Positions 3,550 to 25,370 of a stretch of DNA of 64,000 nucleotides are shown here, one piece after another. Within the stretch, counting starts at the first letter, position 1. Each line of letters opens with the position of its first letter. Origin of the DNA: Aquificaceae bacterium (GTDB lineage Bacteria > Aquificota > Aquificia > Aquificales > Aquificaceae); NCBI GenBank assembly GCA_026981975.1, contig JALSHV010000010.1, positions 149,376 through 213,375 of the forward strand, read 5' to 3'. The notes under the pieces are model-generated. The model saw only the letters and a list, made by a program, of their open reading frames with translations, searched no databases and was not told the DNA's origin. Made by a program: the position numbers and the translations under genes.

Positions 3550-4630
3550 AAAGGTATTTCCTAAGACTCCTTATGAAAAGGAATCCTTTTTGAAAGGGTT
3601 TATTCTGTTTCTAATTACAGTAGAAGTTCTTTTGGTTTTTATATTCCTTTTACTTTACAGAAACGAAGCTATAAGCTTTAGACAATCCCTGTTCCTTGAA
3701 ATGAAGAACTACAGCTACACCTTTGAAGGGGAAAAGTTTCACTTGGACGTGGTGTCTTTAAAGGATTACCCCAATAAAAATTTTTATGAGCCGTATGAAG
3801 ATAAAGAAGGATATTTTATCTTAGTTCCCGTTCCTGTTTCTGCTAACGACGCTTTAAAGATCTTCTATCCACGGAATAAGTTTCTCAAAGATCTTAATAA
3901 CATTAAACTAAGAGTTTTGTTTCTGTTTTTCATTTCAAGCTTAATTGCTATTTTTATATCAATTACCTTTTCCCTTTACGCGCTTAATCCTTTAAGAGAA
4001 GCTCTGAGAATGATTGAGGAGATCACAAAGGACATAATTCACGATATAAATACTCCTTTAATGAGTTTAATGGTAAACATAAAAATACTTAAAAGTAAGT
4101 ATAAAGATGAGGAAATTGAAAGAATACAACTTGCTTTAAAACAACTACAGCAGTTAAGGGAAAATCTTAGACCGCTAAAAGCAAAAACACAGCTAACTTT
4201 AACAGAAGTAAATTTAAAAAAAGTAATTGATGAGGAGTTGGAAGATTTAGTGAAGATCTATCCCGATATAAGAGTTGAAAGAAAAATTGAAAGTGTAACT
4301 ATAAGAACAGATGAAACAGCTTTTAGGAGAATAATAAGTAATTTACTTAACAATGCTTTCCGCCACAACATAACCAAAGGCTGGATTAAAATAAAACTTA
4401 GCAGGGATCAGTTGAAAATAGAAAACAGCTCTTCACCGGTAAAAAATCCCCGTAGGATTTTCCAGAGATACTACAGAGAATCCCAAAGAGGTTTAGGACT
4501 TGGTCTTTCTATAGTCAAAAAACTGTGTGAGGAACTTGGTTGGAAAATTAAAGCTGACTACAAAGAAGGCGTTTTCAGTATTAGTATATACTTTAATGGG
4601 ATTCAAGCTGGGAATAGTAGGACTTCCTAA
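3542..4630 (+). CDS. membrane sensor histidine kinase
   Basis: 362 residues from a TTG start overlapping the regulator gene. TM1 is at about 18-40, followed by an 80-residue extracytoplasmic sensor loop; TM2 is at about 122-147, then a short linker in place of a full HAMP. The H-box is DIIHDINTPL, with His as phosphoacceptor; the N-box is NLLNNAFRHN; the G2 box is GLGLGLSIVKKL. The usual DxGxG G1 box is replaced by ENSSSPVKNP, so the ATP lid is degenerate but an F-box (IFQRYYRES) remains. Partner of the adjacent OmpR-type regulator. The ligand is unknown; the exported His/Glu-rich protein upstream makes a metal or envelope signal plausible. Confidence 0.9.
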   Translation: MIKKVFPKTPYEKESFLKGFILFLITVEVLLVFIFLLLYRNEAISFRQSLFLEMKNYSYTFEGEKFHLDVVSLKDYPNKNFYEPYEDKEGYFILVPVPVSANDALKIFYPRNKFLKDLNNIKLRVLFLFFISSLIAIFISITFSLYALNPLREALRMIEEITKDIIHDINTPLMSLMVNIKILKSKYKDEEIERIQLALKQLQQLRENLRPLKAKTQLTLTEVNLKKVIDEELEDLVKIYPDIRVERKIESVTIRTDETAFRRIISNLLNNAFRHNITKGWIKIKLSRDQLKIENSSSPVKNPRRIFQRYYRESQRGLGLGLSIVKKLCEELGWKIKADYKEGVFSISIYFNGIQAGNSRTS

Positions 4631-5711
4631 TGTAGGAAAGTCAACACTGTTCAATGCTCTTACTGAATCTTCAAAAGCTCAATCCGCTAACTATCCTTTT
4701 TGCACCGTGGAACCAAATGTAGGAGTTGTGGAAGTTCCCGATGACAGGCTTTACACAATAGCTCAAAGGGAAGGATCCGAGAAAGCAACACCTGCCTTTA
4801 TAGAATTTGTGGATATTGCAGGACTTGTAAAAGGAGCAAGTAAAGGAGAAGGTTTGGGAAATCAATTTCTTTCCCATATAAGAGAAGTTGATGCAATCGC
4901 ATTAGTTTTAAGATGTTTTGAAAATCCTCAAATAGTTCATGTTGAAGGCAATATAGATCCTGTAAGAGATGCGCAGATAGTTGATTTAGAACTTATAGCA
5001 AAGGATTTTGAAACTGTAAGTAAAAGACTTGAAAAGGTAGAAAAAATCGCCAAAAGTGGTGATAAAGAAGCAAAAAAAGAATTTGAATACTTAAAGATAT
5101 TAAAGGAATTACTTGAAAACCTTGAGCCTATACGCAAGTATACTGAATCACTACCACCAGAAACTTTACATTATGCTTCCGATAAACTGTTCTTGCTTAC
5201 AGCAAAGCCTATTATGTTTATAGCAAATATAGATGAAAAAGATCTACCTGACGGTAAAAACAATCCTCATCTTCAAAAACTACTTGAAAAAGCCCACAAA
5301 GAAAAAATTCCCCTTATAACAGTATGTGCCAAGTTAGAAGCGGAGCTTAGCTCTTTAGGAGAAGAAGGAAAAGAACTCTTGCAGGCTTACGGACTTAAAG
5401 AGCGGGGATTACACAGAGTAATAAGAGAAGGATATCGTCTGCTCAATCTTATAACCTTTTTCACTACAAATCAGAAAGAAACAAAAGCATGGACTCTTGT
5501 AAAGGGAACTAAAGCTCTTAAAGCAGCAGGGAAGATACACTCTGACATGGAAAAGGGATTTATCAAGGCGGAAGTTTTGAACTATGAAGATTATCTAAAA
5601 GCGGGTTCAATGCAAAAGGCAAAGGAAAAAGGACTTGTAAGACTGGAAGGAAAAGAATACGAAGTTAAGGACGGGGATATAATTTACTTTAGATTTAACG
5701 TGAGAAAATGA
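4596..5711 (+). CDS. ychF: ribosome-associated ATPase YchF (Obg family)
   Basis: 371 residues, close to the 363 of the E. coli protein, using the ATG at 4596 (MGFKLGIVGLPNVGKST). The ORF-track start at 4527 lies deep inside the kinase gene and is rejected. The G1 box is GLPNVGKST; switch II/G3 is DIAGLVKGASKGEGLGNQFL; the usual NKxD is replaced by NIDE, as expected for the ATP-preferring YchF/Ola1 group. The C-terminal TGS domain (about 280-371) carries FFTTNQKETKAWT. It binds ribosomes and acts in stress and translation control. The start overlaps the kinase by 35 nt without a Shine-Dalgarno. Confidence 0.95.
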   Translation: MGFKLGIVGLPNVGKSTLFNALTESSKAQSANYPFCTVEPNVGVVEVPDDRLYTIAQREGSEKATPAFIEFVDIAGLVKGASKGEGLGNQFLSHIREVDAIALVLRCFENPQIVHVEGNIDPVRDAQIVDLELIAKDFETVSKRLEKVEKIAKSGDKEAKKEFEYLKILKELLENLEPIRKYTESLPPETLHYASDKLFLLTAKPIMFIANIDEKDLPDGKNNPHLQKLLEKAHKEKIPLITVCAKLEAELSSLGEEGKELLQAYGLKERGLHRVIREGYRLLNLITFFTTNQKETKAWTLVKGTKALKAAGKIHSDMEKGFIKAEVLNYEDYLKAGSMQKAKEKGLVRLEGKEYEVKDGDIIYFRFNVRK

Positions 5712-5735
5712 AGGAATGCAGATGTAGCTAATAAC

Positions 5736-5801
5736 GGCTGAGGAAATAGCGCCTGCCGGGTTTATCCTCAGCCTGAATAGGCGCGATACAAATAACCCGG
5801 C
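5736..5801 (+). ncRNA. candidate structured RNA / leader: three mutually interlocked inverted repeats
   Basis: The 130-nt gap between ychF and rseP contains three perfect complementary pairs: GGCTGAGGA 5736-5744 with TCCTCAGCC 5765-5773 (9 bp), GCGCCT 5749-5754 with AGGCGC 5779-5784 (6 bp), and GCCGGGTT 5755-5762 with AACCCGGC 5794-5801 (8 bp). The order is A1-B1-C1-A2-B2-C2, so every pair crosses the other two, implying either a compact multi-pseudoknot or alternative folds. The block is G/C-rich in an A/T-rich genome. A further small hairpin, ACTTC/GAAGT (5822-5840), sits where the rseP ribosome-binding site would be. It resembles no family I can name with confidence. Strand is assumed from rseP. 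Confidence 0.42.
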
Positions 5802-5841
5802 GTAGGAGTATATTAATATAAACTTCGGTTAGTTAGAAGTA

Positions 5842-7158
5842 ATGGAAACACTTTTAGCCTTTCTCGTTTTGGTAGGTTTCTTAATATGGTTTCACGAATT
5901 GGGGCATTTCTTAGCTGCCAAGTTCTTCGGTGTTAGAGTTGAAATCTTTTCCATTGGATTTGGTCCACCCGTAATCTCAAAAAGAGTTGGAGATACTGTG
6001 TATCAGATCGCTGTAATTCCTTTGGGAGGATTTGTAAAACTATACGGTGAAGAAGAAAAAGTTAACGATCCCACCGCTTTTTCCGGAAAACCTCCCTGGC
6101 AGAAAATCGTTATAGCTTTAGCGGGTCCTTTCTTTAACATTATGCTTACAGTTTTACTGTTTACCGTTGTCTTTATTATAGGAATGGAAATTCCCAAACA
6201 CATGAGAGAACCAGCTATTGTAGGTTATGTAGAAAAAGACAGCTGGGGATACAAAGCAGGAGTAAAAAAAGGGGATCTTATTCTTAAAGTAGGAGAAGTG
6301 GAGATAAAGAGTTGGGAAGATTTAAGAAAAGCGGTTATAGAGAACACTCTTCAAAAAAAGGAGAAAGTCATTTTAGTTGTAAAAAGAGAAGGGAAAATTA
6401 TCACACTCACAGTATCCCTTCCCACCATTGAAACAGGACAGGAAAATCTCGGAATACAGCCTTATCTACCTCCTGTAATAGGTAAGGTTTTTGAAAAACT
6501 GAAAGGAATAGGAATTTCTCCCGCTTATCAGATAGGACTTAGAGAAGGAGACAGAATTCTAAAGGTAAACGGTAAAGAGGTCAGCAACTGGTATGAAGTT
6601 GTCAAAACAATAAGAAGCGGAGGAGGAAGACCTGTTAAACTCCTGATAGAACGGGACGGAAGACTTATAGAAAAAGTTGTTATACCCGCTAAGGATCCTT
6701 CAACTGGCCAAGCTGTTATAGGTATAGGTCCTTATATGGAAGTAATAAAAGAATCCTATTCTTTACCAGCAGCCATTTCCTTAGCTCTTCAAAGGACATG
6801 GGAGCTTTTCTATATGACTTTCAAGGTTCTGTGGGGACTTGCTACAGGAGCTATATCTCTCAAAACCTTAGGAGGACCTATAGCCATTGCTAAATTTGCA
6901 GGGCAAGCAGCGGAAAGTGGATTTGTTCCTTATCTTTCTTCCATGGCTTTTATTTCTCTTCAATTGGGTATTTTTAACCTACTTCCCTTACCCGTATTGG
7001 ACGGAGGGCTTATTTTGTTGTTTTTAATAGAACTTATCAGGCGTAAACCCTTACCTGATAAATTTAAAGAGTATTGGCAGAAGATAGGCTTTGCACTTAT
7101 CATTTCCTTGATGATTTTTGTAATAGTGAATGACATTTTAAGGCTTTTCGGAAATTAG
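5842..7158 (+). CDS. rseP: site-2 intramembrane zinc metalloprotease RseP
   Basis: 438 residues with the zinc motif HELGH at residues 18-22 in the first membrane helix. Two periplasmic PDZ domains lie at about 125-200 (GYVEKDSWGYKAGVKKGDLILKV) and 210-290 (ISPAYQIGLREGDRILKVNG). The third zinc ligand is in NLLPLPVLDGG, and a C-terminal helix follows. It performs the second cleavage in regulated intramembrane proteolysis, typically of anti-sigma factors, and clears signal peptides. The ATG lacks a good Shine-Dalgarno and is preceded by the structured element described separately. The rpsB promoter follows immediately. Confidence 0.95.
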   Translation: METLLAFLVLVGFLIWFHELGHFLAAKFFGVRVEIFSIGFGPPVISKRVGDTVYQIAVIPLGGFVKLYGEEEKVNDPTAFSGKPPWQKIVIALAGPFFNIMLTVLLFTVVFIIGMEIPKHMREPAIVGYVEKDSWGYKAGVKKGDLILKVGEVEIKSWEDLRKAVIENTLQKKEKVILVVKREGKIITLTVSLPTIETGQENLGIQPYLPPVIGKVFEKLKGIGISPAYQIGLREGDRILKVNGKEVSNWYEVVKTIRSGGGRPVKLLIERDGRLIEKVVIPAKDPSTGQAVIGIGPYMEVIKESYSLPAAISLALQRTWELFYMTFKVLWGLATGAISLKTLGGPIAIAKFAGQAAESGFVPYLSSMAFISLQLGIFNLLPLPVLDGGLILLFLIELIRRKPLPDKFKEYWQKIGFALIISLMIFVIVNDILRLFGN

Positions 7159-25273: not shown

Positions 25274-25370
25274 CGGGAGAGGGAGGGAATCGAACCCTCC
25301 AGAGACTCCGCTACGGAGCCTCTCGCGGGATTTGAAGTCCCGGGACCGCACCAGCGAGTCAACCTCTCCC
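25274..25370 (-). tRNA. selC: tRNA-Sec (anticodon UCA)
   Basis: On the minus strand GGGAGAGG...CCTCTCCC forms an 8-bp acceptor stem and GAGGG-TTCGATT-CCCTC a 5-bp T arm, the 8/5 arrangement of bacterial tRNA-Sec. The anticodon arm is CGGGA-CTTCAAA-TCCCG with UCA at the anticodon position. The long variable arm (AGAGGCTCCG TAG CGGAGTCTCT) has about 10 bp, and the D stem is extended. The discriminator is G; no CCA is encoded. It implies selenocysteine insertion at UGA codons in this organism; selA, selB and selD are not in the window. Its 5' end overlaps the THEP1 gene by 12 nt. Confidence 0.95.

Follow-up and report, generated by a model that had tools for sequence, protein, structure and literature searches.

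A compact RNA with three mutually crossing helices lies in front of rseP in the genome of this thermophilic Aquificaceae bacterium and belongs to a multi-copy family whose core appears, on comparison of its copies, to be the TnpB reRNA (omegaRNA) scaffold of an IS607-like transposon family in Aquificota, an ancestry that the initial annotation of this DNA did not foresee. The copies that stand alone, here called solo copies, are best explained, with a probability of about two in three, as this transposon guide-RNA scaffold domesticated to act in cis as an mRNA leader.

Structure and distribution of the RNA

The initial annotation of the window (the whole stretch of 64,000 nucleotides analysed here) had placed three stems between ychF and rseP, and all three were confirmed as perfectly paired at the positions listed in Table 1, with their strands in the order A1 B1 C1 A2 B2 C2. 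When positions 5712-5841 were dinucleotide-shuffled, 1 of 3000 shuffles had three perfect stems, each of 6 bp or more, that all cross one another, and the observed 23 bp was reached in 0 of 3000, so the suspicion that such an arrangement is unlikely by chance was well founded; elsewhere in the window there is no second site with triple-crossing stems of at least 20 bp. Nested-only folding of the gap, which is uninformative for a pseudoknot, gave a z of -1.45 and missed the element because it is a pseudoknot, as expected.

Table 1. Features of the element between ychF and rseP, in window coordinates
Feature	Position	Strand	Description	Basis
ychF (redox-regulated ATPase YchF)	4527..5711	+	stop codon lies 24 nt upstream of the element	TIGR00092
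Stem A, 5' strand	5736..5744	+	GGCTGAGGA; first base is the predicted start of transcription usual in the family where a -10 box is present	covariation, TATAAT position
Stem B, 5' strand	5749..5754	+	GCGCCT	C-G/G-C double changes at three pairs
Stem C, 5' strand	5755..5762	+	GCCGGGTT; immediately abuts B	double changes at 3-4 pairs
Stem A, 3' strand	5765..5773	+	TCCTCAGCC	covariation
Stem B, 3' strand	5779..5784	+	AGGCGC	covariation
Conserved single-stranded B/C linker	5785..5793	+	GATACAAAT	family alignments
Stem C, 3' strand	5794..5801	+	AACCCGGC	covariation
P4 remnant, weak (3' hairpin of the family)	5805..5826	+	GGAGT...ACTTC, 5 bp including one G-U	
Decayed transposon right end	5824..5839	+	TTCGGTTAGTTAGAAG, versus TTCGGTTAACCAGG in transposons	alignment by eye
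rseP (RIP metalloprotease)	5842..7158	+	element sits in the rseP leader	TIGR00054

Rfam 15 holds no match to the element at the gathering score or at E≤10, in keeping with the initial annotation, which had recognised no known family, and the only extra match of the window at E≤10 is an unrelated weak one inside rseP. At tnpB-linked loci the element is likewise without an Rfam match at E≤0.5, with riboswitches, ribozymes, RAGATH-18 and HEARO included. The RNA is, as judged from its sequence, a new family, absent from Rfam 15. The sole RNA-family match in the window is a selenocysteine tRNA gene at 25275-25370 on the reverse strand (Rfam tRNA-Sec, 68.9 bits), with which ARAGORN concurs.

Downstream of stem C, the decayed right end at rseP terminates, in an alignment by eye, in a Shine-Dalgarno (SD)-like AGAAG that is used by rseP. 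The alternative pairings within 5805-5841 of the window copy are no more stable than those of shuffles, and a second hairpin proposed over the rseP ribosome-binding region was unsupported (z 0.03). The ACTTC at 5822-5826 can pair alternatively with the P4 strand GGAGT at 5805-5809 or with GAAGT beside the rseP start codon.

The host genome comprises 1.61 Mb in 29 contigs and is 99.94% complete. BLAST with the ychF-rseP gap found five copies in it, four of them diverged, with A stems that differ in sequence and still pair (GGGTGTCCA/TGGACACCC versus GGCTGAGGA/TCCTCAGCC). A covariance model in which base pairs were given for stem A only found at least 19 copies in the host genome (E from 9e-24 to 5e-6, values that are rough); within the same taxonomic family, 50 of 64 genomes have copies, and across the phylum there are matches in 81 of 136 Aquificota genomes and 22 of 30 genera. 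Copy number varies from 0 to 35 between sister species; one genome of 1,500,577 bp (G050) has 35 copies and its listed genus-mates have none.

In the 19 copies of the host genome, 98.0% of cells are paired, 14 of the 21 pairs show two-sided changes, and the covariation score is 0.415, versus 0.129 in shuffles and at most 0.076 with slid partners. Among 41 distinct copies, 98.5% of cells are paired and 105 two-sided cells are spread over 15 pairs in A, B and C, the counts for A being biased by its use in fitting the alignment and the covariation of B and C being independent of the fit because both were modelled as sequence only. Stem B alternates between C-G and G-C and stem A varies at every pair in these 41 copies, and stem C has variants such as GCTGGGG/CCCCAGC and GCGGGGG/CCCCCGC. 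Compensatory change in the three stems, which the initial annotation had set as its own test, is thus abundant in all of them, and its description of a compact, mutually crossing, pseudoknotted RNA in a leader or intercistronic position was right. Its other suggestion, a switch between exclusive hairpins, is disfavoured: A, B and C are retained together in almost all copies (96-99% of cells each) and covary in the same copies, which therefore points to one fold.

On this comparative evidence, the three crossing helices form one predicted functional fold of the ABCABC ("pseudotrefoil") type, a class with 51 sequences versus 1688 of H-type in a published survey (PMC3390330); the family shares the helix arc order of that class, a likeness of topology alone that implies no homology. 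The best-conserved unpaired segment of the RNA in the alignments is the B2-C2 linker (consensus approximately GNTAYAAAT), which probably crosses the stacked B/C helix.

Copies linked to tnpB

In sibling species, the core forms the 3' end of a long ORF, tnpB, overlapping the right end of a transposon (e.g. loci L139, L142, L143, L147 and L148). Full-length linked proteins score above the cut-offs of TIGR01765 and TIGR01766 and match TnpB/Cas12f2 models more weakly; their RuvC-like D/E/D positions are visible by eye (GIDLN..., ...LED... and ...TKDIA...), and zinc-ribbon cysteines are absent. The tnpB frame stays open through the structured RNA (e.g. L139:3900-4261), and the RNA also encodes the C-terminal tail. 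About 0.7 kb upstream of this tnpB element, which belongs to genome G060, lies an SRP RNA gene (L139 2034-2119, forward strand; Rfam Bacteria_small_SRP, 57.6 bits).

The linked copies carry a hairpin before stem A (P0, with the loop ACCUGG or GCUUGG), a further hairpin after stem C (P4), and a terminal CCAGG. P0 and the right end were detected by simple patterns, and a P0 loop CCTGG or CTTGG together with a right-end CCAGG is present in nearly all tnpB-linked copies; by complementarity, the two could pair with each other (PK0).

When the five complete elements named above were compared, ...(A)GGAGG was followed by T(T/A)A... at the left junction, and the right junction fell after ...TAACCAGG, with the start codon of the host gene a short spacer further on. 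Rejoining the flanks of L142 or L147 gives an SD, a spacer and ATG. With (A)GGAGG on the left and a spacer plus start codon on the right, the transposons therefore occupy SD sites, and we infer that the left-junction (A)GGAGG is the target-adjacent motif and that the sequence past the right end is the guide. IS607 TnpBs have the target-adjacent motif 5'-AGGAG (PMC11061315), and IS607 inserts at GG (PMC6188088); in the five elements the junctions after GGAGG and after CCAGG place GG at both ends with no target-site duplication, in agreement with IS607. In genome G048 (contig C12), a serine recombinase (resolvase) gene at 5895-6278 lies 20 nt upstream of tnpB at 4253-5875, both on the reverse strand, and the element is therefore of IS607 type; in many other copies a serine recombinase next to tnpB is absent. 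Mobilisation by a Y1 transposase (IS200/IS605) was considered and rejected, as the host genome has no Y1 transposase and the junctions and the G048 serine recombinase suit IS607 better. Loci L074, L090, L091 and L200 hold short MITE-like derivatives of about 290-360 nt that consist of a left end plus a right end, with GGAGG on the left, and are possible intermediates to the solo copies.

Two described systems resemble the linked copies. ISFba1, an IS607 element with its TnpB reRNA on RAGATH-18 (PMC11061315), likewise combines a serine recombinase with TnpB, an AGGAG-type adjacent motif (an SD sequence), and a 3' scaffold whose far end is tied by a pseudoknot to the loop of a 5' hairpin. Its reRNA is separate from tnpB, whereas the Aquificota RNA overlaps the tnpB ORF, has an ABCABC core without an Rfam match in linked or solo copies, and has solo copies that would serve as leaders. 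The ISDra2 omegaRNA (IS200/IS605, PMC10097598) is also encoded at the tnpB 3' end and right end, with a stem 1 loop that pairs beside the guide (here P0/PK0) and a further 3' stem (here P4); however, its stems 2 and 3 are nested where the Aquificota RNA has three mutually crossing helices, and the TAM TTGAT is ISDra2's.

Solo copies in front of host genes

An ORF begins 8-80 nt downstream, in the orientation of the element, in 115 of the 120 copies that had sufficient flanking sequence, and a divergent one in 30. Within the 6 positions -16 to -11 from stem A there are 24 TATAAT boxes, as against 17 across the 55 positions -75 to -21, and in many copies the transcript would therefore start at stem A; other copies are intercistronic, including the rseP copy 24 nt past ychF. 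A ribozyme was rejected since there is no known-family match and TATAAT would set the start at stem A in many copies, which leaves no obvious upstream cleavage product. The initial annotation had offered a ribozyme, a riboswitch or a protein-binding leader: the leader position stands, and there is no sign of a ribozyme or of a ligand.

Behind the host genome's own copies are rseP, hfq, ppa, a SAMP1/MoaD-like gene, rpmF, ftsZ, an erpA/iscA-like gene, tatA and rpsT, along with genes for Roadblock, DUF4149, GYD, PLP-enzyme, cytochrome c and P460 proteins. Empty orthologous sites of hfq, ppa, moaD, rpmF and ftsZ in species of the same genus have a plain AGGAGG(T) SD at the element position. The SDs behind elements are as strong as those of other genes (p 0.15), and this equality with background lends no support to a direct role in ribosome recruitment; the idea of the RNA as an IRES-like SD substitute was rejected on the same ground. 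Attenuation by intrinsic terminators is not general either: among the host genome's own copies, P4 with T4-T5 is found in L056, L062 and L067 only, and at those genes alone attenuation is possible. A 225-230 aa ORF upstream of the G050 copies proved to be an artefact of locus boundaries, the true upstream genes being ordinary host genes.

Across species, the same genes recur behind the element: htpX 11 times, hfq 6, mreB-like 6, ftsH 5, fusA 4, rpoA 4, trxB-like 4 and rho 3, with names assigned by eye except for htpX (Peptidase_M48) and hfq. Recurrence of htpX, hfq, mreB, ftsH, rpoA and rho across genera would also be expected of the main rival, a classical regulatory leader controlled by a ligand (a riboswitch) or by a protein at its site, with a regulon of about 20-35 genes in, for example, a stress or translation response and with the transposon link secondary. 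The conserved 5'-end position and the strong conservation of the unpaired linker and of the B/C sequence fit this rival as well, but tnpB-linked copies conserve these bases to the same degree, which is accounted for by their function as reRNA; moreover, gene sets are mixed, copy number ranges from none to 35 between sister species, and a consistent terminator or SD-masking alternative was not seen. We consider a leader of this kind unlikely. In the related family f2, two genera have the element ahead of rpoA, following a gene that was read as rpsD, and others have it ahead of a probable oxidoreductase gene with a twin-arginine signal (RRDFLK); the f2 loci (L198, L202, L213 and L206, L212, L214) are single copies at orthologous places.

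The host genome contains no Y1 transposase, no serine recombinase or resolvase, no TIGR01766 match and no intact TnpB, and its only TnpB traces are two short fragments of a different subfamily (G000:C8:55757-56206 and G000:C29:7938-8063 (L273)). G050 has five TnpBs of another subfamily (450-460 aa) and one Y1 transposase, and a tnpB of the RNA-linked family is absent from it. None of the G050 TnpBs (G050:C1:330885, 350676, 638212, 724926 and 796323) adjoins a copy of the RNA. None of the 19 copies in the host genome, and just 1 of the 32 distinct ones in G050, has an upstream P0-like loop, with A, B and C retained in both genomes. A strong P4 (stem score at least 6) accompanies 15 of the host genome's 19 copies and 150 of the 178 in total, against 10% of shuffles; P4 is weak in the rseP copy itself. 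Lacking a cognate TnpB, P0 and the guide-proximal pseudoknot, the rseP copy is, by prediction, not a working guide RNA.

It could be supposed that the leaders are processed and loaded in trans, as active guides, into a TnpB or a dead (TldR-like) TnpB encoded elsewhere, given the reRNA ancestry, the location of the RNA where reRNA would be made, and the existence of TldR precedents (PMC13418256). However, a genome of this completeness has no TnpB over the cut-off, P0, the partner in the guide-proximal pseudoknot, is absent from every one of the 19 own copies and from 31 of 32 distinct G050 copies, and the would-be guides, to go by their position, each match their own gene start only, so that we regard guiding in trans as highly improbable. 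Domestication in cis as we propose it has in common with TldR (TnpB-derived RNA-guided repressors) that a host took over a TnpB system, but what the Aquificota hosts would have kept is the RNA instead of the protein, and they would carry it in cis, as part of mRNA leaders.

Of 68 bases of the rseP copy, 60-61 are shared with transposon-type or tnpB-linked copies in sibling species. An empty-site comparison is impossible at rseP because the relatives compared carry other genes upstream of rseP, mostly a yjbQ-like gene, and ychF is there in none. Close relatives of this rseP belong to Aquificota. In 11 genomes of genus g6, one copy forms the htpX leader, with 97.8% of pairs intact and 30 two-sided changes, all in stem A, and 7 of the 11 (G035-G037, G042-G044 and G046) have no match to the linked TnpB family. 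At htpX, the structure is retained at an orthologous position without mobile machinery, as would be looked for in a domesticated leader.

The near identity of the rseP copy to its transposon counterparts, together with the occurrence of short left-end-plus-right-end derivatives, could be taken to mean that solo copies are neutral relics, right ends that have not yet decayed, and it is conceivable that young copies, that of rseP among them, persist as an unavoidable scar on which selection is weak. Relics of this sort are very unlikely to account for the family, as, in a genome that lacks the machinery, 98% of pairs still hold and compensatory changes are numerous, P0 is gone from 19 of 19 own copies while A, B and C are retained, and the htpX copy has been kept genus-wide with its two-sided changes. 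Intact pairing at this level without transposon machinery shows, as far as the copies themselves can tell, that the solo-copy fold has been under continued selection.

A proposed route to domestication

Under domestication as a leader, the transposon would have jumped into SD sites, its left end and tnpB would have been lost afterwards, and the right-end RNA would have remained as the leader of the host gene and then been domesticated; guidance of DNA cleavage would no longer be the scaffold's role in the host genome. At an mRNA 5' end or between cistrons, the knot-like fold may shield the message from ribonucleases and may keep the ribosome-binding site open, at fixed spacing, at high temperature. 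Ribonuclease protection and fixed spacing are favoured because the element stretches from +1, or from immediately after a stop codon, to just short of the ribosome-binding site. Anatomy, rather than a rooted tree, is the argument for this direction, in which transposon RNA became a leader; in the reverse case a transposon would have picked up an existing leader. We also lean, if only slightly, towards a wider proposal, in which hosts repeatedly domesticated the scaffold of a TnpB transposon that targets SDs, instead of its nuclease, and made it a knot-like leader for dozens of essential hyperthermophile genes, controlling their stability or translation.

The pseudotrefoil core and the use of solo copies as leaders are the new parts, TnpB reRNAs themselves being already known. 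To our knowledge, a three-way crossing core has not been reported for any known omegaRNA or reRNA. The open-licence literature yielded nothing that joins TnpB with SD targeting or with solo reRNA leaders, which is weak evidence of absence, and main-text passages of a study of Aquificales ncRNAs, in which riboswitches of Aquificota are described as found only sporadically, make no mention of the element (PMC4227106).

The RNA adds a strongly covarying structured family to Aquificota, and its orthologous copies (htpX, hfq, mreB, ftsH and rpoA) make the idea of domestication directly testable. A TnpB scaffold of pseudotrefoil type would be of use for the study of guide-RNA evolution and for thermostable editors. 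The family would join RNA-guided transposons that apparently dwell in SD sites, a new guide scaffold, and the reuse of that scaffold as a leader of essential genes.
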